From Desulfovibrionales bacterium (GTDB lineage: Bacteria; Desulfobacterota; Desulfovibrionia; Desulfovibrionales; Desulfovibrionaceae): a stretch of 47,162 nucleotides of DNA. The DNA is taken from positions 1 through 47,162 of the forward strand of contig JASGMV010000029.1 of NCBI GenBank assembly GCA_030156255.1, given 5' to 3'. The translations under genes were made by a program, and so were the position numbers. Under the pieces are notes generated by a model, which did not search any database, was not told where the DNA came from, and saw only the letters and a program-made list of their open reading frames with translations. Positions 45 to 46,319 of the stretch are shown one piece after another (position 1 is the first letter of the stretch; the number at the start of each line of letters is the position of its first letter).

Positions 45-425
45 TCAATTGATTTTGGTTTGCGCGACAGGCTCGGGGTAGACGGGATGAAAGGCGATAT
101 CCTGAATGAAGCCTTGCCGGTTCGTGGTAATGGTCACGTCGGTGGTGTACAGGGTTCCGCAGGAGCAGCGAAAGAACGCGATGAAGTAATATTTGAACGT
201 GGTTCCATCCTGCTCTCGGTGATCGAAGGCCAAGTAGTACAGCACTCCATGATCATGGTCCATCGTGGCGCTGTCTTCCATGACTTCGAGAATATGTTTG
301 CCCTTGGCGGCTCCGAGTTGTCTTTCAAACGTGAGTTCGGCGGCCGGCCGCGCGGCGCAGGCGCTGACTGCGCAGGTGATTAGGGCCAGCAAGGCGAAGA
401 TCGCCAATCGACGTGAGGCGTACAT
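45..425 (-). CDS. Small secreted lipoprotein, unknown function
   Basis: This encodes 126 residues starting with a basic, then hydrophobic signal segment (residues 1-22) that ends in a lipobox-like V-S-A-C, so the mature protein is probably lipid-anchored in the envelope. The rest is a small soluble domain with a Cys-Ser-Cys pair near residue 87 and no family I recognise. The start is supported by a GAGGAG ribosome site a few bases upstream. It stands alone, with a hairpin after its stop. An 8-base inverted repeat lies 60-85 bases before the start and could be an operator. Function is not assigned. Confidence 0.75.
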   Translation of the reverse strand: MYASRRLAIFALLALITCAVSACAARPAAELTFERQLGAAKGKHILEVMEDSATMDHDHGVLYYLAFDHREQDGTTFKYYFIAFFRCSCGTLYTTDVTITTNRQGFIQDIAFHPVYPEPVAQTKIN

Positions 426-36002: not shown

Positions 36003-36548
36003 ATGCGTTGGTTCATCCATTTTTTGCTGTTCGTTGCGTTGTCCGCCGGCGGCTGCGCCAAGCAAGTGACTGTCGTGGAAATCCCGACATTGCAGGCGGA
36101 CTTCGCCGACCCCGAATGGACCGGCGACATGATTCCCCCAGGCCAGCAATGCCGAAAATGCGGCGGCGACGGATCGACGCCGCGGTTCATCGTCAGCAAT
36201 ATTCCTGAAGGGGCTTCGGATCTGGTCATTCAGTTCCGGGACGGCGCTTTCGACAGCGGCATGACCTCCCAAGGGGCGCACGGAGCCATTCGGGTGAAGA
36301 TTGCGGACCATAGCCGGATGACCACTCCGGCCGTAGCCGGCGAAACCTTGGACATGCCTCAGGACGTGACGATAGAAAAACGCCATATAGGCGGTAACGC
36401 CGGTCAGACGGGAGCCTATCTGCCGCCTTGCGCCTGCCTGGCCAAGAATCGTTCGTACCATAAATATTACGCTCTGATCCAGGCGGTTGATGCAAACGGA
36501 ACGGTGCTGGCGGAGCGGACGATCATGATCGGAAAATTCAAAAACTAG
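36003..36548 (+). CDS. Lipoprotein resembling PEBP/YbhB family
   Basis: 181 residues. Signal segment ending L-S-A-G-G-C (lipobox). The remainder resembles a phosphatidylethanolamine-binding-protein fold: STPRFIVSNIPEGASDLVIQFRD (about 59-81) parallels the SPxLxWxxxPxGTxS motif, and GQTGAYLPPCACLAKNRSYHKYYALIQAVD (about 134-163) parallels GxxGYxGPCPPxGxHRYxFxLYALD. A CRKCGGDG motif near 50-57 is an addition not usual in PEBP and could bind metal. Role unknown. GGAG precedes ATG 36003 and a strong terminator follows. Confidence 0.65.
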   Translation: MRWFIHFLLFVALSAGGCAKQVTVVEIPTLQADFADPEWTGDMIPPGQQCRKCGGDGSTPRFIVSNIPEGASDLVIQFRDGAFDSGMTSQGAHGAIRVKIADHSRMTTPAVAGETLDMPQDVTIEKRHIGGNAGQTGAYLPPCACLAKNRSYHKYYALIQAVDANGTVLAERTIMIGKFKN

Positions 36549-36715: not shown

Positions 36716-37282
36716 ATGTTCAAGGGCCTCGCCGCCATAGGTGCGGGTTGCGTTCTTGTTTTGCTTCTTTCCGGTTGCGGCGGGCAGTATCAGCAGCAAC
36801 GCGTGGACCGCGACCGCATCCTCGGCCAGCAGCGCTACGTCGCCGTACTGCCGTTGGTCAACCTGACGTCGCATCCGGAGGCCGGGCGCATCGTCGGCGA
36901 TCTGCTTGCAACGGAGCTTTATGCAGCTACCTCGTTCAAATTTCTGGAGCGTACGGAGCTTGTGCGGCAAATCAGCCAGGAGGAGGACCTCGAACTGGTC
37001 ATGGACAAGGCCGCAGCCCAGCAGATCGGCGAGAAGCTTGGCGTTGACACCGTCATTTACGGCTCCGTGGGAGAATACGGTTATCTTCGCGGGCTGGACC
37101 AAGGCCCGGCCGTGTCCGTAACGCTGCGTCTGCTCGACGTCCCTTCCGGACAGGTCCTGTGGGCCGCCTCCCGGTCCGAGTCGGACGGTTGCTTCGCGGT
37201 CTGCGTCAACTCCGTCTCCGAGACGGCGCAGCGTTTGCTGGCGTCCATGGTCAACGACATGTTGCAAACGCCGGGAAATTGA
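36716..37282 (+). CDS. pelC: PelC-like outer-membrane lipoprotein
   Basis: 188 residues. Lipobox L-L-L-S-G-C near residue 21. The body (RYVAVLPLVNLTSHPEAGRIV, about 40-60; LGVDTVIYGSVGEYG, about 110-124; then VSVTLRLLDVPSGQVLWAA) matches the CsgG/GNA1162-like domain of PelC. In Pseudomonas, PelC forms a periplasmic ring that funnels Pel polymer to the PelB barrel. AGGAGG precedes ATG 36716. It is the first gene of the operon here, unlike pelABCDEFG. Assignment rests on fold pattern plus context. Confidence 0.82.
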   Translation: MFKGLAAIGAGCVLVLLLSGCGGQYQQQRVDRDRILGQQRYVAVLPLVNLTSHPEAGRIVGDLLATELYAATSFKFLERTELVRQISQEEDLELVMDKAAAQQIGEKLGVDTVIYGSVGEYGYLRGLDQGPAVSVTLRLLDVPSGQVLWAASRSESDGCFAVCVNSVSETAQRLLASMVNDMLQTPGN

Positions 37283-37283
37283 T

Positions 37284-39377
37284 ATGCCGCGAATTTTTGC
37301 GGTGTTGCTTTTCCTTTTTCTGACCGGCTGGCAGGCGCCGTCCGCCTGGGCCGAGGAACCGCCGCAAGCTACGCCCTACCTGCGCACGATTCTCGTCTTT
37401 TATAATTCGGAGTCAGGCCAGACGCCCCTGGAAAACACCTTCAGGGAAGGCTTCGCCTTCGTCGCCAACTATCTTGGAATGACGCTGCAGTACCGGGACG
37501 TCGCCAAACGGCCCCTCCCCTCGGATGAAGAAATGGCCGGCGTGCGAGGGATCGTCACCTCCTTCGTCGCCGGAGGCATGGGCGCCCCCGAAGCGTACCT
37601 CCGGTGGCTTTTGCGCCAGATGGACCATGGCAGGCCCGTGCTGCTGCTGGGCGGGCTCGGCGCTCTGGAGGACAAGGACGGCCGACCGGTGGACCTGGAA
37701 CTGCCCAAAGAGATTTTTCGAAAACTCGGCCTGGAATTCCAACCCGACTTTCTGGCCAACCAATCCCTGCTGCATTACACCTTCGCGAACAAGACCCTGA
37801 CGGGCTTCGAGCGGCCTTTGCCCGTCTTTCCGCCCGTCTACGAACATTTCGCCCCGCTGCCGGAAGCCGACCCCTGGATTTTGGTCGGCCGGCGCGACAA
37901 GCCCAACGCCCAGAGCGCCCTGGTCGCCACATCCCCCGCCGGCGGATTGGCCATGTGGGAGTACGTCTACTGGGAGGATCCGATCTCCTACGCCCACCAG
38001 TGGTACATCGACCCCTTCTCCCTGCTCCGCAAGAGCCTGCAATGGGAAGGCGTTCCCGCCCTGACGCCCACCACCGTGAGCGGGTTGCGCGTGGCCGTGT
38101 CCCACGTGGACGCCGACGGCTTCGGCGGCTACTCCGAAGTCAACAAGACCGCCTACTGCGGCCAGGTGGTCATCCAGCAGATATTCTCCCGCTATAATTT
38201 TCCGATCACGGCCTCCCTGATCCAGGCCGAGGTGGACCCGGAGCTGTCCGGCAGTCCGGACTTGTTGAAGGCGGCCAGGGATCTCATGCGCATGGACAAC
38301 ATCGAGCCGGCCTCCCACACGTACAGCCACCCCTTTTATTGGGACCCCGAGGACGAAAACAAAGTCAAACTGTATCAGGACAAACTCGGCGTGGACCAAT
38401 ACGGCGTGCACGTGGAAGGCTACCGCTTCAATGCAACCATGGAAATTGTCGAGTCCACGAGCTGGATATCGAAAGTCGTCGATCCACCCGACAAGCCATG
38501 CAGCGTGCTGCTTTGGTCCGGCGATTGCGAACCCACTGCCGAACAGGTGCGATTGTGCCAGGAGCACGGCCTCTTGAATATGAACGGTGGGGATACGGTC
38601 TACGATGCGGCGCATAATTCCTTGTTCGGCGTGTCCCCGTTGTACCAGCCTTTTGGAGACGCCATCCAGGTCCTCACCGGCCAAGCCAACGACAATATCC
38701 TGACCAACGACTGGACCGGCCCTTTCTTCGCCTACCGCAATATTATCGAAACCATGCGCCGCACCGGGGCTCCCCGTCGTCTCGCGCCCATCGACATCTA
38801 CTACCATTTCTTCAGCGGCGAAAAGTTCGCATCTCTCCAGGCCCTGCGCGACGTCTACCAATGGACCATGGCCCAGCCCGTCGCGCCCATGTTTACGTCG
38901 GCCTATATCCGCATGGTCCTGGATTTCGTCAAGGCGCGCATCAGCCGAAGGCCGGACGGCGCCTGGATCATCGAAAACTATGGGGAATGCGCAAGCCTGC
39001 GGATTCCGGCGGGCTTTTTGCCGGATTTACCCCGATGCCAAGACGTCCAAGGCTACTTCGCCTCTCCGGAGGGAATTTTTGTTCATCTTGAGCCGGGCGG
39101 ACGTGCGGTTGTGTTTCTGTCCCACACCGACGGGAGCGCGCCGCATTTACAGTGGGCCACGGGAGTCGTGCGCAGGTTCTCCGTCCATGAACGGGAGATT
39201 CGCCTGCATTTCGACTGTTTCGGTGAAGGACGGCTGCGCCTGGCCGGGCTCGACTCCGGCGCGGTCTGGGAAGCCTCGGGCCCCGGCCTTTCATCCAAAG
39301 AATATACGGTGGACAAGGACGGTGGTTTGACCATCGAGCCCCTGGGCTCGGGCGATTTGAGCCTGAGGGCCCGTTGA
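37284..39377 (+). CDS. pelA: PelA-like polysaccharide deacetylase without hydrolase domain
   Basis: 697 residues (P. aeruginosa PelA is 948). Signal peptide 1-23. Residues 30-260 form a reductase-like Rossmann domain. The deacetylase domain follows with HVDADGFGG (His274, Asp276, Asp278) and SHTYSHP (His345, His349), the Asp and metal-binding His-x3-His of the CE4-like PelA deacetylase. A beta domain occupies the last 150 residues. The N-terminal GH166 glycoside hydrolase of P. aeruginosa PelA is absent. It partially de-N-acetylates Pel (GalNAc/GlcNAc) in the periplasm. One base after pelC; stop TGA overlaps the pelB TTG. Confidence 0.85.
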   Translation: MPRIFAVLLFLFLTGWQAPSAWAEEPPQATPYLRTILVFYNSESGQTPLENTFREGFAFVANYLGMTLQYRDVAKRPLPSDEEMAGVRGIVTSFVAGGMGAPEAYLRWLLRQMDHGRPVLLLGGLGALEDKDGRPVDLELPKEIFRKLGLEFQPDFLANQSLLHYTFANKTLTGFERPLPVFPPVYEHFAPLPEADPWILVGRRDKPNAQSALVATSPAGGLAMWEYVYWEDPISYAHQWYIDPFSLLRKSLQWEGVPALTPTTVSGLRVAVSHVDADGFGGYSEVNKTAYCGQVVIQQIFSRYNFPITASLIQAEVDPELSGSPDLLKAARDLMRMDNIEPASHTYSHPFYWDPEDENKVKLYQDKLGVDQYGVHVEGYRFNATMEIVESTSWISKVVDPPDKPCSVLLWSGDCEPTAEQVRLCQEHGLLNMNGGDTVYDAAHNSLFGVSPLYQPFGDAIQVLTGQANDNILTNDWTGPFFAYRNIIETMRRTGAPRRLAPIDIYYHFFSGEKFASLQALRDVYQWTMAQPVAPMFTSAYIRMVLDFVKARISRRPDGAWIIENYGECASLRIPAGFLPDLPRCQDVQGYFASPEGIFVHLEPGGRAVVFLSHTDGSAPHLQWATGVVRRFSVHEREIRLHFDCFGEGRLRLAGLDSGAVWEASGPGLSSKEYTVDKDGGLTIEPLGSGDLSLRAR

Positions 39378-42205
39378 GGTTCAAGTTTTGGCAGATCGCT
39401 TTGTTCGTGGCCCTGGTGGTCGGGACCACGTTCCTTGCCTTTCCCACGAAATCCAGGCTGGTCGACTTGTATCTGCAAAGCGGAGAACTGGAGAAGGGCC
39501 GCACCCTGCTCGAAGAACAACTGGCGATCCATCCAGAGGACGTACAGCTTTTGCTCACTGCTGCGGACCTATACCAGGAGCTGGGCTATTCCGACCGTTC
39601 ATTGGAGATCTTGCGCAAGGCGCAGGCCCTGCGCCCCACGGATGCGGCCATCCTGCGCAAGCTTGCGCAAATGTATGAATGGAGCATGGAGCCCGACAAG
39701 GCGGCTGAGATCTACAACCGTATGGCGAATGCTTCCTTGGCCTCGGCGGAGATTCTGCGCAAGTTGATCGCCTGGGACCGCTACATCGGCCGCCTTCCGG
39801 CCGAGGTCGACACCATCATTCGCCTCGTGGACAAAAACATTTTCATCTCCGTGGACTCCCCTTCTCCCTATCTCCAGGTCCTGGCCGTCGCCTTGAAGCG
39901 ACTGGCGAAACTGCGCAGTCCCAAGCCTGACGACATTCTGCTCAATTTTCTCATTCAACGCCTGTTCATCCTGGGAGAGCAGTACACGGCCGAGCTGCAG
40001 AGAGGCGACAAGCCCGAGATGCTGCAGTGGTGCACCTACGCACTGGAGTATTTCGTCATGGCGGGAAGGGTCCGCGAGGGCTTGGAGTATGCGGTGGATT
40101 TGGACGCCGCCCTGAACAAGCCCCTGTTCGCCTCCTTGAGGCTGGTGACGGTGCTGCAATGGTCCAGCCTGTACCAGCAGGCCTTGGATGTGCTGACCGA
40201 CCTGGAGCGGATGCGGCCGGACGATTTGAAATTACTCAAGGCCATGGCCGAGTTGGGCCGGCGCGCTAGAAACTATCAGAAAGCGGAGCACGCACTGATC
40301 CGCCTGACCGAACTCGCCCCCCGGGACCAGGAGACCCGCAACGGGCTCGCCGACCTGTATATGGAGCAAGGCGCCTACTCCAAGGCCTTGGACGTGCTGG
40401 TGAAAATCGCCGAGGCCTTCGGTCGGACCTTCCAGCTTATCGACCGGATGTTCGAGGCGGCTCTGGCCGGAGGGGAGGCCGAGCAACTGGAAATCGCAGC
40501 CGAACAGGCCAAGGCGCTTTCCGCCGGGCAATGGGGCGAGATGATTCGCGCCAACCCGCAGGTCGCCCGCAAACGGGCGGACGTGTTGCTCGCCCTTAAC
40601 CGGCCGAAAGAGGCCCTGCCCGTCCTGCAGGATTTGTATCGGCAATATCCGGACGACCGCTCCCTGGTTCTCCAGATACTGCAATTGGCCGGATCGGTTG
40701 GTGACTCTCAGTTGATTTCGGAAGTCGCCGAAAACGCCTTGCAGCATTGGCCGGACGATAAGGACATCCTGAGCGCCGCGGCCTCGGCCGCCCTCGCTTT
40801 GGGCGACGGCGAACGCGCCCAGTCTCTTTTTGCGAGGCTTCTGCAATTGCAGCCGAATCCGGACGAAGCGATCGCCTTGCTCGAAGCCGCCGGCTCCTCC
40901 GGAAAGCCGGCTTTGGTGGAGTCCTCGGCGCGAATCGTCGCCCGCTATTACCCGCACGACGCTAGGCTATTGAGCAAGGCCGGCGAGGTTTCGGAGTGGA
41001 CGAACGATCCGAGGCTCGCTTACGGTTACTATCGCGCCGCCGCCCTGCTCAGCAAAAGCGAATCCGACGTGGGCCGCATGTTGGAAACCGCCAGTTACAC
41101 CGGGGACGAACGCCTCATGTCCGAGGCGCTGCAAACGGCGTTTCAGCTCAGGCCGAACGACGTCGACATCGCCCTTCGAGCGGCGCGGCTGTTCTATAGC
41201 GAGGGACGCACGAACCTGGGCCGGCGGATCATGGAGCAACTGGAGGCGCGCAGGCCGCTGACCGCCGGGCAACTGCGCCAGTGGGCGGACATGGCCCTGG
41301 CCGCCGGCGAAGATGAAGAGGCCTATGGTTTGTTGGAGCGGGTTCACGCCATGGCCCCGGGCGACGAAACGATTACCCGACGCTTGGCGCAGTTGGCCTC
41401 TTGGACCAACCGTTACGAGCGCCAGGCGGAGTTGTTGGGAGAACTGTCCCGGAAGCATCCCAAAAATGCAACGTTGGCTCTGGAGGCGGCCCAGGCTTTC
41501 GGCTCCGCCGGAGACCCGGGACGCGCAGCCGATATCTTAAAGCGTTCCTTGCAATATGCTCCGGACAATCCGGATTTGCTGCGCGCTTACGCCCGGAATT
41601 CCAACGACGCCGGCCGTCCCCGCCAGGCGGCGGAGGCTTTGGAGCGGTTGCGCCGGTTCGTCAGGCTGACCCGCGACGAATCGCTCCTTCTGGCGTCCGC
41701 CCTGGTGGAAGATCAACAACCGGCGCGGGCTTTGGATATTTTGGAGCCTCTGGCTTCGGAAGGCGGTTTGGGCAAAGAGGGTGGACTGCTGCGGATTCGC
41801 GCTTTGGCCCTGGCCGGACTCCGTGACCGGGCGGCCAAGGCGTCCATGGAGATGGCGCTACAGTACGCGAACGACGCGCCCACGCTTTCCAGCCTGGGTG
41901 TTTTGGCCTTGGACAACGCGCAACCGGAAGTCGGGCTCCGGTTCTTCGATCAGGCCCTGTCCTTGAATCCGGACAACCTCGCCGCATTGAAGATGTCGGG
42001 AATGGCGCTGGCCGACCTGGGGCGCAACGATCAAGCCAGGGCGCGGCTGAGCCGATACCTGAAACTGCGGCCCGAAGACCCGCAAGCCCGCTATCGTCTG
42101 GCCGAGACGCTCGACGCTGCGGGACGGACGGTTCAGGCGCGCCAGGAGTACGCCAGGGCGCTGCAAGAATTGAAGAAAGATATCACCCAGGGAGCCCGGC
42201 CGTGA
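39374..42205 (+). CDS. pelB: PelB N-terminal part: membrane-anchored TPR scaffold
   Basis: 943 residues. One N-terminal transmembrane segment (about 5-24) then TPR repeats throughout, about 20 or more helical pairs (SLEILRKAQALRPTDAAIL and similar). It corresponds to the TPR region of P. aeruginosa PelB, which contacts PelA and PelC in the periplasm; no beta barrel is encoded. Start TTG 39374, with GAGG six bases before it and TTGA overlap with the pelA stop, is chosen; it is a rare start, but translationally coupled. The stop overlaps the next gene as GTGA. Confidence 0.8.
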   Translation: MRFKFWQIALFVALVVGTTFLAFPTKSRLVDLYLQSGELEKGRTLLEEQLAIHPEDVQLLLTAADLYQELGYSDRSLEILRKAQALRPTDAAILRKLAQMYEWSMEPDKAAEIYNRMANASLASAEILRKLIAWDRYIGRLPAEVDTIIRLVDKNIFISVDSPSPYLQVLAVALKRLAKLRSPKPDDILLNFLIQRLFILGEQYTAELQRGDKPEMLQWCTYALEYFVMAGRVREGLEYAVDLDAALNKPLFASLRLVTVLQWSSLYQQALDVLTDLERMRPDDLKLLKAMAELGRRARNYQKAEHALIRLTELAPRDQETRNGLADLYMEQGAYSKALDVLVKIAEAFGRTFQLIDRMFEAALAGGEAEQLEIAAEQAKALSAGQWGEMIRANPQVARKRADVLLALNRPKEALPVLQDLYRQYPDDRSLVLQILQLAGSVGDSQLISEVAENALQHWPDDKDILSAAASAALALGDGERAQSLFARLLQLQPNPDEAIALLEAAGSSGKPALVESSARIVARYYPHDARLLSKAGEVSEWTNDPRLAYGYYRAAALLSKSESDVGRMLETASYTGDERLMSEALQTAFQLRPNDVDIALRAARLFYSEGRTNLGRRIMEQLEARRPLTAGQLRQWADMALAAGEDEEAYGLLERVHAMAPGDETITRRLAQLASWTNRYERQAELLGELSRKHPKNATLALEAAQAFGSAGDPGRAADILKRSLQYAPDNPDLLRAYARNSNDAGRPRQAAEALERLRRFVRLTRDESLLLASALVEDQQPARALDILEPLASEGGLGKEGGLLRIRALALAGLRDRAAKASMEMALQYANDAPTLSSLGVLALDNAQPEVGLRFFDQALSLNPDNLAALKMSGMALADLGRNDQARARLSRYLKLRPEDPQARYRLAETLDAAGRTVQARQEYARALQELKKDITQGARP

Positions 42206-43731
42206 TCCGCCGATGCATCCTCCTCCTGATGCTGGCGGGCTACAGCGTCTTGTCCGCAACCGGCCCGTGCTCCGCGCAGGAGATCGCCGCGGACCTGACG
42301 CCCGCCAACCAGGAAGTTCTGCAGGCGCCCGTCCCGGACGCCGCCCGTCCCGAACCGCCTCCGGCGGACCAAACGCCCGACGCGCTCTCCAGCCTCGACG
42401 CCGTGCAAAAACGTCTGCTTTACGCCAGCCTGTTGATAAAAACCGGCAAGATCGGGACGGGGCTGAAGGAATATCGCGCACTGGTCCGGGAATATCCGAA
42501 CCGCGGCGACGTGTTGGGCGCCTATCTCCAGGCCCTTGTCGACTTGCAGCGTTACGAAGAGGTGCGAGCGCCTCTCAAACAATGGCTGATCAGGGAGCCG
42601 GACAACCTGGACGCCCTGCGCCTGGCGGCTTCCATCGCCTTGGCCTCGGGCCGGCCGGCCGAAGCGTCCTTGTATTTCGAACATCTTTGCCGGCTGCGGC
42701 CCGGCGACCCTATCGCCCTGTCCGACGCGGCCTACGCCAGGCAGGAGGCGGGAGACAGCCGGAGCGCTCTGCGTCTGTTTTCCGAGTCTTTGGACGCCGA
42801 TCCAAACCAGCCGGAGGCCCGAAGAGCCGTACGCGAGTTTTTGGTTGACCTGCGTCCGCGGCTCATCGCCGGCGCAAGCGTTCTCAAACAGGACAGCGAT
42901 ACGTACACCTACGCCTCGACGACCGGCTTTTCCGCTCCGATTCGTGACGGAACCCGGCTTGCGGCCCTCTACGACCATGTCAGCGTCACCCGCCCCCAGG
43001 ACGCCGGGACCCTGGGACTGGACGAAACCCTGGACCACGGCCGGTTGCTCCTGACCCAGCGGATCACGCGCAAGCTCGACCTTCGGATCGGCGCCGGGGC
43101 CTTTTCCGGATTCAAGGACGGTTTCTCCCAGGAGGCCGGCCTGGACTGGCGTCCTGCGAACGGCGCCCAGTTCTCCTTGGACGGCAAACGCAACCAGCCC
43201 TGGTACGACGAAGTGGAGGCCACGCAATATCGCGGCGCTTACGATGATTTGGCTCTCAATTTCGACGGGTCTTTGGGAAATTGGGGATTTTACGCAGAAA
43301 GCGGAGCTCGGGCGTACTATCTTTCCCCCGTGAACCATTACGGAACCCGCGAGCGCCTCAATGCGGTGATCAGCCGGAAACTTTTCGATGCGCCGGAAAC
43401 CTATCTGTCGTACTCGTACTACAGGTCGTGGTTCCAGTACGACGTTGGAGACGACTTTCGCCCCTTGGACATGGCGAAGAACGAGGCTCTGCACATGTTC
43501 AATCTCAGCACGGCCCTGCCGTTGGCGCCGTGGTTGCGGGCGGTGCTGGCCGGAGGCGCCGGCAAGGACGAATTCAAGCCGAAACCGACCTTCGTGTTCT
43601 CTCCGTCGTTGGAAGTGAAGCTTGGTCCGCGGGTGGAGGCCACCGCAGGATTCGAATATAGAAGTGAATCGGAGCGCATCGGCGGCGGCGAAACAATGGA
43701 TGCGACGATGGGTTTTCGCATCGTATTTTAA
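42202..43731 (+). CDS. pelB: PelB C-terminal part: TPR plus outer-membrane barrel
   Basis: 509 residues. Signal peptide (1-28, ending CSAQ). Residues about 60-215 form four TPRs (SLYFEHLCRLRPGDPIALSDA etc.), then about 290 residues of alternating strands such as RITRKLDLRIGAGAFSG and a C-terminal VF, the outer-membrane export pore for Pel. Its own signal peptide shows that it is a separate secreted protein, not a frameshifted tail. Start GTG 42202 overlaps the preceding stop. Together with the scaffold gene it covers the same functions as one PelB of 1193 residues. Confidence 0.82.
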   Translation: MIRRCILLLMLAGYSVLSATGPCSAQEIAADLTPANQEVLQAPVPDAARPEPPPADQTPDALSSLDAVQKRLLYASLLIKTGKIGTGLKEYRALVREYPNRGDVLGAYLQALVDLQRYEEVRAPLKQWLIREPDNLDALRLAASIALASGRPAEASLYFEHLCRLRPGDPIALSDAAYARQEAGDSRSALRLFSESLDADPNQPEARRAVREFLVDLRPRLIAGASVLKQDSDTYTYASTTGFSAPIRDGTRLAALYDHVSVTRPQDAGTLGLDETLDHGRLLLTQRITRKLDLRIGAGAFSGFKDGFSQEAGLDWRPANGAQFSLDGKRNQPWYDEVEATQYRGAYDDLALNFDGSLGNWGFYAESGARAYYLSPVNHYGTRERLNAVISRKLFDAPETYLSYSYYRSWFQYDVGDDFRPLDMAKNEALHMFNLSTALPLAPWLRAVLAGGAGKDEFKPKPTFVFSPSLEVKLGPRVEATAGFEYRSESERIGGGETMDATMGFRIVF

Positions 43732-43760
43732 AGCCGGTTGCCTTGGAAAGGTAATCTGCT

Positions 43761-43790
43761 CGGCAAGGATTTGCGATTAAATCCTTGCCG
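43761..43790 (+). promoter_or_regulatory. Perfect 12-bp hairpin before pelD
   Basis: CGGCAAGGATTT with AAATCCTTGCCG around the loop GCGATT. It lies 29 bases after the barrel gene and has no U-run. First of a tandem pair of hairpins in the 136-base gap. Confidence 0.7.
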
Positions 43791-43793
43791 CTA

Positions 43794-43836
43794 AAATGCT
43801 TGCAGGCGGGCTGAGCCCGCCGTTAAGCAAGCATTT
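43794..43836 (+). promoter_or_regulatory. Nested double-stem hairpin before pelD
   Basis: An outer 10-bp stem, AAATGCTTGC with GCAAGCATTT, encloses a perfect inner 7-bp stem, GGCGGGC with GCCCGCC (loop TGA, 43805-43821). It ends 31 bases before pelD. Not a standard terminator. A 15-base identical stretch recurs at 29329-29343, so a dispersed repeat is possible. May set the level of pelD relative to upstream genes. Confidence 0.7.
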
Positions 43837-43867
43837 CAAGCGTAATATGCTCTAGGAGAAAGACGGC

Positions 43868-45274
43868 ATGATTCCCACGGCGAAGCCTAAAAAGGTTCGA
43901 TCCACCTGGCTGCTGGAGACCATCCTCGGGCTGGCGGCCATCACGGTGGTGAACCTGCTTTTGTACCGTCAGGATATCGGCTTTTCCCGAGCCGTCCCCC
44001 ACCCTTTTTGGGCCGTGATCATTTTGATGGCCGCCAGATACGGCTTCCGGGCGGGCTTGGTGAGCGGCGTTCTTTCCGGCGCGCTCTATTTCGTGCTTCG
44101 GGCGCAGGCCGTGGACACCTTGGACGTCGCGGAACTGAGAAGCTTCAGCCTGTGGGGACGGCCCATCCTTTTTACGGCCGTCGGCGTCTTGCTGGGCGAA
44201 CTTCGGCAGCTGCAAATCGTAAGATACAAAAATCTTGAGAAGAAAGCCCAGGAGCAGGAGCGCGAGCTGCAGGTTCTTCAGCAACATTACGAGGCATTGA
44301 GCACGGCGAAGCAGGAGATCGACACGCGCATCATTTCCCAGGAGCAAACGTTGTCCACGCTGTACGAGGCGGCTCACGGCCTGCGCTCCCTGGAGGAAAA
44401 AGACATTTATCCGACGGTTCTGGCCATGCTCCATGATCATCTGAAAGTCGAGGACAGCTGTATTTATCTCATTGAGGGCGATCAGTTGCGCCTCAAGGCG
44501 AGATTGGGGCCCCCGGAAATTCAAAGGCCGAAAACGCTGTCCCTCGCCGCCTCGATGATCGGCGAGGCCATCACCCAGCGCGAGGCGATCTCTTTGGATA
44601 TGGTGCTGGACGGGGCGCCGAGCGGCGACTCTCCCCTGGCCGTCGCGCCGGTCATGGGATTGGCCGGCCGGCGGGTGTTCGGCGCACTGGTGGTCTGGAC
44701 CATGCCTTTCATCAAATTCACCCCGGATTCGGTGAACATGATCGCCTTGATGGCGGACTGGTGCGGCGAGTCGGTGGACAACGCCAGAATCTATCAACAA
44801 ACGAAGGACAAGCTCATCGCGGATGAAACCATCGACGCCTACACGCCGGAATATCTGCGCCAGAGATTGGAGGAAGAATTCACCAGAGCCCGGCGTTACG
44901 ATCTGTCGTTGTCCCTTTTGGTGCTGGAGTTCCCTAAATTCCAAGGAGTATCGGACGCAGACAGGGAGGATATCCTGTTGACCTTGAGTCTTGTGCTCAA
45001 GAATTGGACCAGGAATATCGACCTGCTCTTTCTCGGCGACACGCCGGGGCTGTTCGTCCTGCTGCTGCCCAACACCAATCTGGAAGGCGGACGCGTGGTC
45101 GCGAGAAATATTATGCACACCTTTGAGACGCTGAAGGAAGGCATGAAGGAGCAAGACTCCGCCCTGCAGGATATCCGCATGGGCGTGTCGGCCTTTTCGC
45201 CCGAAATGGAGAACGCCGAAGATATGTTGACGTTGGCGCAGGAGAACGCCGAACATGCCCTCAACATCGATTGA
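43868..45274 (+). CDS. pelD: PelD-like c-di-GMP receptor
   Basis: 468 residues. Four membrane helices (about 16-33, 46-58, 63-78, 98-112), a coiled coil (about 115-165), a GAF domain (about 165-310) and a GGDEF-fold domain (about 320-465). The GGDEF loop has decayed to D-T-P-G-L (391-395), but the inhibitory-site RxxD remains, R382-N-I-D385, five residues before it: the layout by which P. aeruginosa PelD binds c-di-GMP to switch on Pel synthesis. No cyclase activity expected. AGGAG is seen before the start. Overlaps pelE by 20 bases. Confidence 0.88.
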   Translation: MIPTAKPKKVRSTWLLETILGLAAITVVNLLLYRQDIGFSRAVPHPFWAVIILMAARYGFRAGLVSGVLSGALYFVLRAQAVDTLDVAELRSFSLWGRPILFTAVGVLLGELRQLQIVRYKNLEKKAQEQERELQVLQQHYEALSTAKQEIDTRIISQEQTLSTLYEAAHGLRSLEEKDIYPTVLAMLHDHLKVEDSCIYLIEGDQLRLKARLGPPEIQRPKTLSLAASMIGEAITQREAISLDMVLDGAPSGDSPLAVAPVMGLAGRRVFGALVVWTMPFIKFTPDSVNMIALMADWCGESVDNARIYQQTKDKLIADETIDAYTPEYLRQRLEEEFTRARRYDLSLSLLVLEFPKFQGVSDADREDILLTLSLVLKNWTRNIDLLFLGDTPGLFVLLLPNTNLEGGRVVARNIMHTFETLKEGMKEQDSALQDIRMGVSAFSPEMENAEDMLTLAQENAEHALNID

Positions 45275-46319
45275 CCGCAAGTTTCCCCGGCGCGTTGCGT
45301 TCGCCCTGTCCATCGCCGTTCTGCTGGACTGTGCTGCGTTGTGGTCGGTCTTTTCTCTTCCCGTCATTACGCCGGCGCAGGCCTTGCCCGCCATGGGCCT
45401 GCATCTGGCGGCGGCGGGTTTGATGACGGCCGTGGCCGTTGCCGCCAAAAAACAAGCGAACGTAAGGTATCTTGCCGGATTGAGCGCTTTGTTGACCTTT
45501 TTCACCCCTGTCGTTGGGCCGGCGGGCTGTCTGGTCTCCTATGTCGCCGGCAGAGTCTTGATCAAGCCGCGGGGATTGGCCAAGGCGTTTTCCGGAGCGG
45601 AAGGCGGCGTGGTCCAAGGCGAGGAGGAGTTCTACGGCCTTTGGGAAGACGTGAAGCTCCATGAAGAGCTTTCCATACAGCCTGTTGTCGACATCCTGGA
45701 AGGAGAAGACGCGGCCCTCAAACGCGGCGCCATTCAGCTCTTGAGGCGGCTGGGCACGCCCGACGCCGTTCGGACGCTCAAAAAAAGTTTGAGCGATTCG
45801 GACGCCGAAGTCCGGTTCTACGCGCACACCGCGTTGACAAGACTGGAGGAGGATTACGCGGAGCGTTTCACCCAAGTGCAGAAAGAGGCGCGGGACGACG
45901 ATCTTGACGGATTGATCGCCTTGGCGAAAATTCAACAGGAGTACGCAGCGAGCGGCCTTCCGGACGATAGCATTCAGACCCAGATGTTGTCGGAGGCCCG
46001 CTCGAATCTGACCAAGGCCTTGAAAGCTCCGGGGGGCGATCAGACGAAGTTGCGTACGGTTCTCGGGTTGTTGGAGCTGCGCCTGGGCGAGCTTGAATCC
46101 GCCAAACAGGAATTTGAGACGGTTTTGAATGCAGCGCCGGACACCCCCGACGCCTTGCTCGGACTTTTGAACGTTTGTTTCAATCAAAAGGATGCGCAGG
46201 CGCTCCGGCGACTGCGGCAAAACTTGCAAGGCAAGCGGTTCGATACAACGGACCCCGCGAAGCTGACAGTGTTGAATTTCTGGGCGGGACATTTGGGGAG
46301 GAAGCGGTCCCATGCATGA
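45255..46319 (+). CDS. pelE: PelE-like inner-membrane scaffold
   Basis: 354 residues. Two or three hydrophobic segments (about 14-36, 40-60, 72-98), then a HEAT-like part (RGAIQLLRRLGTPDAVRTL, about 155-173) and TPR-like helices to the C-terminus. PelE bridges PelD and the PelF glycosyltransferase at the inner membrane in Pseudomonas. The start overlaps the pelD end and the stop overlaps the pelF start, so the three are tightly coupled. Sequence identity to known PelE cannot be checked here; position and architecture are the evidence. Confidence 0.82.
   Translation: MPSTSIDRKFPRRVAFALSIAVLLDCAALWSVFSLPVITPAQALPAMGLHLAAAGLMTAVAVAAKKQANVRYLAGLSALLTFFTPVVGPAGCLVSYVAGRVLIKPRGLAKAFSGAEGGVVQGEEEFYGLWEDVKLHEELSIQPVVDILEGEDAALKRGAIQLLRRLGTPDAVRTLKKSLSDSDAEVRFYAHTALTRLEEDYAERFTQVQKEARDDDLDGLIALAKIQQEYAASGLPDDSIQTQMLSEARSNLTKALKAPGGDQTKLRTVLGLLELRLGELESAKQEFETVLNAAPDTPDALLGLLNVCFNQKDAQALRRLRQNLQGKRFDTTDPAKLTVLNFWAGHLGRKRSHA

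Follow-up and report, generated by a model that had tools for sequence, protein, structure and literature searches.

Probable division of PelB between an anchored TPR rail and a separate outer-membrane pore in a pel operon of the Desulfovibrionaceae

The pel operon on contig JASGMV010000029.1 of a Desulfovibrionales bacterium (assembly GCA_030156255.1, family Desulfovibrionaceae) contains two overlapping genes, here called pelB1 and pelB2. The window analyzed is the whole contig of 47,162 nucleotides (contig C44) from a draft genome of 3.84 Mb in 106 contigs. We consider it likely that PelB is divided here between two subunits, an anchored rail of tetratricopeptide repeats (TPRs), PelB1, and an outer-membrane pore, PelB2. 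A sequence-only reading of the window had proposed that one protein is a TPR scaffold in the inner membrane and the other a separate pore of TPRs and a barrel, and the pel operon, the fold of PelB2, and collinear single-chain relatives agree with that proposal. Its coordinates, its lengths of 943 and 509 residues, and the GTGA overlap of the two genes were all exact. The pelB1 gene begins with a TTG codon inside a TTGA shared with the stop of pelA. The overlapping start of pelB2 suggests that translation of the two genes is coupled. Coordinates are collected in Table 1.

PelB1 has a single hydrophobic helix at residues 5–22 with no AXA-type cleavage site, and from hydrophobicity, sequence pattern, and the AlphaFold2 (AF2) model it is predicted to be an inner-membrane anchor. 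Relatives share a conserved start such as MNIKLWRxLLFxLIIxGxTVLIYPFPRD, and residues 1–34 reach the top score (0.68) in a stepped conservation profile of 17 PelB1 sequences. A conserved docking patch at the PelB1 C terminus was also considered and was dropped when none was seen in this profile. TPR families match PelB1 far over their cut-offs. The AF2 model, built with 11 sequences, has a predicted local distance difference test score (pLDDT) of 87.5 and a predicted template modeling score (pTM) of 0.46, and it contains the N-terminal helix followed by 53 more. Comparison with solved structures gave 17 matches at E ≤ 0.001 to generic or designed TPR proteins; the TPR entry of Pseudomonas aeruginosa PelB (PaPelB) was not among them.

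PelB2 starts with a signal-peptide-like stretch, MIRRCILLLMLAGYSVLSATGPCSA, as judged by hydrophobicity and sequence pattern. In its AF2 model (pLDDT 86.4, pTM 0.73, 16 sequences), nine helices at residues 67–217 (four TPRs and an additional helix) precede 16 strands at residues 220–508; the pLDDT falls below 50 at residues 11–54 and 57–59. Pattern and model bear out what had been read from the letters, namely an anchor and TPRs in the first protein, and a signal peptide, TPRs, and a barrel ending in Phe in the second. When the PelB2 model was used as a query in Foldseek, PelBC (Protein Data Bank code 9h80) ranked first (E 3.2e-18) by a small margin, followed by three BcsC entries; PgaA came in twelfth place. 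The second aligner, VIA, gave tied DALI-like Z scores for BcsC (27.2), PgaA (27.1), and PelB (26.9). Two further BcsC entries scored 24.6 and 24.3, and the next protein was CymA at 18.2. The PgaA family TIGR03939 (cut-off 366.65) was matched below its cut-off by PelB2 (21.2 bits) and PelB1 (81.5 bits), as was the BcsC family NF008520 (cut-off 858) by PelB1 (29.2 bits). A search for PelB2 on plasmids gave no match at E ≤ 0.001.

PelB1 and PelB2 sit inside a pel operon that comprises pelA, pelC, and pelD to pelF; pelG is found on the next piece. Contig C88 (L086) encodes at its start the C-terminal part of a PelF and a PelG-like protein, and this stretch appears to continue the operon of the window.

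The two-gene arrangement is found throughout the relatives that carry PelB2. PelF scored above its cut-off in 30 of 199 genomes of the order, some of them with partial or weak matches. The gene order C-A-B1-B2-D-E-F is complete in 18 of 24 stretches from relatives; the other six (L068, L079, L081, L083, L084, and L085) are cut, decayed, or carry pelEFG without an adjoining pelB. Using a profile of 12 PelB2 sequences, PelB2 was found at E ≤ 1e-20 in 29 of 288 family genomes, the window's own included, and in 7 of 44 genera. It is always a separate frame of 460–733 residues (29/29, among them L235, a truncated frame). Homologues of PelB1 and PelB2 adjoin in all 29 loci, which argues that the pairing is not due to chance. 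The PelB1 frame ends between 11 nucleotides past and 42 nucleotides before the PelB2 start, with an overlap of 4 or 11 nucleotides in eight loci and no overlap in 21. A hydrophobic N terminus is present in every family PelB2, where the start codon was picked for the strongest hydrophobic stretch, a choice that favors this result. Joined frames and a lost PelB2 signal peptide had been named as objections to the split; the 28 relatives keep the frames apart, and the hydrophobic N terminus is retained throughout. The split of PelB is general in the family and not peculiar to the genome of the window.

A few loci of the family deviate in their layout. In genus g29, pelB2 and pelF are ~5 kb apart on opposite strands in three genomes (G112, G136, and G205), and three stretches (L079, L081, and L083) carry pelEFG and an epimerase-like gene apart from pelB2. 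The stretch L085 (genome G084) contains a PelF-like sequence with four TAG and two TAA codons in frame and PelA fragments nearby, and it is either a decayed locus or one read with another genetic code.

Single-chain relatives point to the location of the cut. PelB1 and PelB2 profiles, each built from 17 family sequences, were compared with 13 large single-chain proteins and with four barrel proteins from the early-split loci described below; TPR cross-matches occur within the single-chain proteins scanned. For the fused protein L112 (1179 residues), residues 1–118 correspond to PelB1 1–119, residues 503–723 to PelB1 718–933, and residues 701–1154 to PelB2 166–601. The N terminus of L103 is cut by its contig, and here residues 364–431 correspond to PelB1 863–930, followed by residues 439–877, which correspond to PelB2 183–622. 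The same succession is seen in L164 and L141, with weak parts of 17 and 12 bits. The cut site is placed by the alignment of L112 and L103 to PelB1 and then to PelB2. The first ~165 positions of the PelB2 model, with the signal peptide and linker, have no counterpart in either protein.

The PelB2 proteins of sister genera contain an additional domain in this N-terminal part. In genus g8, Pfam SPOR (cut-off 21 bits) matches between the signal peptide and the TPRs, at residues ~40–110, with 29.7 bits in L032, 23.4 in L065, 31.0 in L066, and 23.5 in L071; the scores of L082 (16.9) and L034 (16.3) are under the cut-off. A profile seeded by the four proteins above the cut-off matches 19 of the 29 family PelB2 proteins, 16 of them at ≥117 bits (seeds included) and three at 14–25 bits. 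It has no match in the PelB2 of the window or in nine others of the 29. SPOR domains bind denuded peptidoglycan.

To follow the split beyond the family, named genomes were scanned for PelF, and the best 80 loci were labeled as split or fused from mechanical calls of open reading frames (ORFs) on profile matches. Scores were obtained for 45 loci: 27 are fused, 16 have a late split like that of the window, and two have an early split. No barrel ORF was found in 32 others, and three were set aside (L150 and L167 as weak, L185 as cut). Taxa with late splits include Verrucomicrobiota, Alpha- and Gammaproteobacteria, Magnetococcales, and Eisenbacteria; the late split of L106 (632 and 485 residues) was read by eye. 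The second piece has a hydrophobic start of at least 1.98 in 13 of 15 late splits, L115 and L123 being the exceptions, with starts picked for hydrophobicity. Two late splits have no anchored neighbor in view (L132, at a contig start, and L137, where none was found), and the first ORF of L158 shows no anchor at its mechanically called start.

The early splits consist of an anchored ORF of ~300 residues and an ORF of 927–976 residues with signal peptide, TPRs, and barrel. They are found in L097–L100, from the same phylum as the window (299–333 and 938–942 residues), in L152 from Alloalcanivorax, and in L159 from Curvibacter. As in the window, the anchor and the barrel are encoded by two genes, and the second protein has a hydrophobic, signal-peptide-like start. 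Unlike the window, the cut is far closer to the N terminus and the barrel is canonical (L098, PF24604, E 3e-51). Two cut sites, late and early, are seen.

The state of pelB was mapped on a tree of PelF and PelG with 64 rows, of which 60 were labeled (L103, L110, L140, and L184 were left unlabeled) and which includes nine of the 18 loci of the family that are complete. Inside the family's clade lies the named locus L114 from Halodesulfovibrio, in line with an assignment of the family to Desulfovibrionaceae. The split or fused state requires 10 changes over the 60 labeled loci, or nine when seven doubtful rows are dropped. Five of the 10 changes are forced by branches with a support of at least 95, and shuffling the fused label 500 times never gave a count as low. 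The tree is a quick one, with 19 open forks and long branches for L106 and L142, and it counts changes, not their direction.

Some of these loci have features of their own. The PelB2 N termini of L154, L156, L138, L158, L132, and L178 share with the fused protein L127 a stretch of ~100 residues before the TPRs. In the alignment it follows a pattern like GRELVLRFSxP ... GYDSLL, and in L127 it lies inside the fused PelB. An AMIN domain was considered for the PelB2 of this alpha/gamma clade, and the idea was dropped when Pfam named none in L154, L138, L158, L132, or L178; in these five, the shared stretch has no Pfam name at all. An ORF of 498 residues in the locus L105 was missed by the scan of the PelF strand, although it matches the family profile of the PelB2 barrel at 1e-55. 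L184, from Nitrosospira multiformis, has an anchored TPR ORF of 915 residues directly before pelD; no barrel ORF was found in this locus.

In the arrangement that we favor, PelB1 would be held in the inner membrane by its uncleaved N-terminal helix, and its ~26 TPRs would span the periplasm, serving the Pel polymer as a rail and probably also docking PelA. PelB2 would be exported through its own signal peptide and fold into a 16-strand barrel in the outer membrane, where its four TPRs and the barrel-proximal helix would be expected inside the PelC ring. Stacking of the final PelB1 repeat on the initial PelB2 repeat is probable and would restore non-covalently the continuous array of a fused PelB. 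According to the models, PelB1 ends with the second helix of a TPR (residues 919–938) and PelB2 begins with a first helix (residues 67–80), which is the phase of one continued array. From the position of the cut, docking between the two TPR sets is plausible. When an engineered PaPelB fragment (762–1193) is given a foreign signal peptide, it arrives in the outer membrane and binds PelC, whereas the barrel by itself fails to retain PelC (PMC12141448); PelA requires TPR 9–14 of PaPelB (PMC12022489). PelB2 resembles this fragment and by analogy should be an autonomous pore carrying the PelC site, with PelB1 as the anchored rail. The operon would then secrete Pel, with PelA and PelC bound by the split PelB.

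Several results weigh against this arrangement. The conservation of the C-terminal TPR of PelB1 is ordinary, with 344 of 910 profile windows scoring higher among the 17 PelB1 sequences. The fold scores of PelB2 cannot tell PelB from BcsC or PgaA; as they tie, the fold was used to identify an exopolysaccharide barrel and the operon to identify Pel. The Pfam family of the PelB barrel, PF24604 (B-barrel_PelB_C), is not matched by the PelB2 of the window at E ≤ 10, with positive controls at E 1.9e-110 (Pseudomonas, L136) and E 3e-51 (L098, above). PelB2 is therefore classed outside this family, as a divergent protein predicted to work like PelB. Using hhalign, no link was found between the family PelB2 and the PelB C termini of Pseudomonas and other Gammaproteobacteria (probability 1.2). 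Since direct profile homology to the Pseudomonas type was not found, the assignment uses the fold, the operon, and one bridging sequence, L132, which matches the family barrel profile at E 6e-6 and PF24604 at E 8.5e-6, under the Pfam cut-off. Collinearity is clear in two of the 13 large single-chain proteins (L112 and L103) and weak in a few. The remainder, including Pseudomonas PelB, show nothing but scattered TPR matches, and the cut is not placeable on PaPelB by sequence.

If a sequencing error or a recent mutation had interrupted a single gene, two frames that overlap by only 4 nucleotides could result. However, PelB2 opens with a signal-peptide-like stretch, the first ~165 positions of its model are missing from L112 and L103, and the split recurs in 29 of 29 family loci with junctions that vary from −11 to +42 nucleotides. 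On this family-wide split a frame error was rejected, and we give a broken gene virtually no weight. The GTGA overlap, together with the overlaps of 4 or 11 nucleotides in eight family loci, could also accommodate programmed frameshifting that yields some fused PelB1-PelB2. This is very improbable, because 21 of the 29 loci have no overlap, the spacing varies, and the fusion product would hold a signal peptide in mid-chain. Recruitment of PelB2 from another exopolysaccharide system, similar to BcsC or PgaA, would fit the equal structural scores, the missing PF24604 match, and the missing profile link to Pseudomonas PelB. Against it stand the first rank of PelBC in Foldseek, by its small margin, the occurrence of pelB2 between pelA and pelD wherever the locus of a relative is complete (18 loci), and the bridging sequence L132, and we judge such an origin improbable.

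Two other alternatives are unlikely but carry appreciably more weight. In one, PelB1 and PelB2 make no contact and are bridged by PelA, PelC, or the polymer alone, with peptidoglycan holding PelB2 through SPOR in the sister genera. The PelB1 C terminus without special conservation, the SPOR-like domain in 19 of 29 family PelB2 proteins, and the low-confidence linker of the PelB2 in the window are in line with this, as is alginate export, which uses the TPR lipoprotein AlgK and the barrel AlgE as separate chains, although these are thought to form a complex (PMC9734138). In L112 and L103, however, the TPR array continues across the cut, and for this reason end-to-end stacking of the two proteins is predicted. 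The other alternative is that separate PelB1 and PelB2 are the ancestral state and that repeated fusion gave rise to the single chain seen in Pseudomonas and others, in which case split would be the wrong word. The tree counts changes without direction, and split forms are found in distant clades. The extra N-terminal part of PelB2 varies from clade to clade, though (SPOR, a Pro-rich linker, or the unnamed stretch), which suits several separate fissions, and we lean by a clear measure away from an ancestral separation. A division of PelB into an anchored rail and a pore remains the reading that we prefer.

Table 1. Positions of the pelB1 and pelB2 features and of neighboring pel genes in the window
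Feature	Position	Strand	Basis
pelB1, N-terminal part of PelB, TPR arm with inner-membrane-type anchor	39374..42205	+	ORF, TPR families, AF2 model, collinear with L112 N-terminal part
PelB1 transmembrane anchor, residues 5–22	39386..39439	+	model helix, no cleavage motif, conserved start in relatives
PelB1 TPR array, residues 26–938, 53 helices, ~26 repeats	39449..42187	+	TPR families, model
GGGAG, possible ribosome-binding site, 7 nucleotides upstream of pelB2 start	42190..42194	+	read from sequence, putative
GTGA, pelB2 start codon GTG within pelB1 stop overlap (4 nucleotides)	42202..42205	+	sequence
pelB2, outer-membrane pore subunit (predicted), 509 residues	42202..43731	+	ORF, AF2 model, Foldseek
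PelB2 signal peptide, residues 1–25, predicted by eye	42202..42276	+	hydrophobic N terminus, also in 29/29 family PelB2
PelB2 linker, residues 26–66, Pro-rich, mostly low confidence	42277..42399	+	model; SPOR position in sister genera
PelB2 TPR helices, residues 67–217	42400..42852	+	TPR families, model
PelB2 16-strand beta-barrel, residues 220–509, C-terminal Phe	42859..43728	+	model, fold comparison
pelC, lipoprotein	36716..37282	+	PDB 9h80_C PelC, E 3.2e-10; CsgG-like
pelA, 697 residues	37284..39377	+	PDB 9cgy PelA, E 1.3e-76, query 54–625 to chain 276–831
pelD	43868..45274	+	DUF4118 (below its cut-off), GAF_3, GGDEF matches; position
pelE	45255..46319	+	position; HEAT and TPR matches
pelF, cut by contig end	46312..47160	+	NCBIfam equivalog NF038011 PelF, E 1.8e-76

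The PelA of the window lacks ~275 N-terminal residues of Pseudomonas PelA, as the match to 9cgy begins at residue 276. The missing part is presumably the place of the hydrolase domain of glycoside hydrolase family 166 (GH166) in the Pseudomonas protein. PelA is 693–742 residues long across the window and the 18 complete family loci. The spacer between pelB2 and pelD (43732–43867) contains a palindromic repeat with strong folding (RNA −60.6 kcal/mol, z −5.2). At least 39 further long copies with 79–88% identity are present in the genome, with 40 of 102 candidates scored. Contig C45 of this genome carries one gene of Y1_Tnp, which we take to be the family of transposases associated with repetitive extragenic palindromes (REP). 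Shortly upstream of pelC, at 36003–36548, an ORF of 181 residues resembles a lipoprotein with a CxxC motif; it has no Pfam or NCBIfam match at E ≤ 0.001. An Rfam scan of the window gave nothing above the gathering score.

Should these operons work, a PelB that is naturally and conservedly made in two pieces means that covalent continuity is not required in general. The split proteins are ready-cut subunits with which the PelA-binding and PelC-binding halves could be identified and the need for a continuous TPR rail examined, and the SPOR-bearing pore subunit of the sister genera is a direct handle on the anchoring of the pore to peptidoglycan. A wider reading, which we find about as credible as its opposite, is that PelB is not by rule a single chain. 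The bridge would have been cut or joined about 10 times at two or more places, with the anchor on the first piece where this is readable to its start, a signal peptide on almost all of the second pieces, and SPOR gained in the sister genera. The Pel machine would then tolerate or favor a dismountable periplasmic joint, with the pore fixed to peptidoglycan instead of the inner membrane.

A divided pelB as such is already in print. The legend of Fig 5 iii in Bundalovic-Torma 2020 (PMC7112194) mentions "pelB fission" in aquatic thermophilic species. There, as in the window, pelB is divided between genes; the available text gives only the phrase, without describing the anatomy or locating the cut, and Desulfovibrio is nowhere named in the main text as available. 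The open-licence literature, in the texts available, yielded no description of PelB in divided form or with a SPOR domain beyond this phrase. Pel operons of syntrophic sulfate reducers are described in PMC10553843, whose main text, as available, does not name PelB. As far as the searched literature reaches, the family-wide conservation, the recurrence, the two cut sites, and the SPOR domain on PelB2 of sister genera, which the PelB2 of the window does not share, are new.

The closest known system is PelB of P. aeruginosa (PA3063, 1193 residues; PelBC, 9h80). Its N-terminal hydrophobic stretch is without a cleavage site (PMC12141448), and it has in common with the window an uncleaved N-terminal hydrophobic helix, a TPR array, a 16-strand barrel, and a pel operon with PelC. 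It is one chain, whereas the window has two, and the barrel sequence of the window is too distant for PF24604. In the 2025 PelBC paper, PelB and multiple homologues are proposed as possible physical bridges between the two membranes (PMC12141448). In alginate export, the TPR scaffold AlgK and the pore AlgE are separate chains, as in the window, but AlgK is an outer-membrane lipoprotein, unlike PelB1 with its predicted inner-membrane anchor, and the polymer differs (PMC9734138). BcsC (6tzk and 9b8a; Z 27.2 and 24.6) and PgaA (4y25; Z 27.1) are exopolysaccharide barrels like the PelB2 model. They differ from the window in serving the cellulose and poly-N-acetylglucosamine (PNAG) systems and in carrying TPRs and barrel on one chain (PMC12141448).

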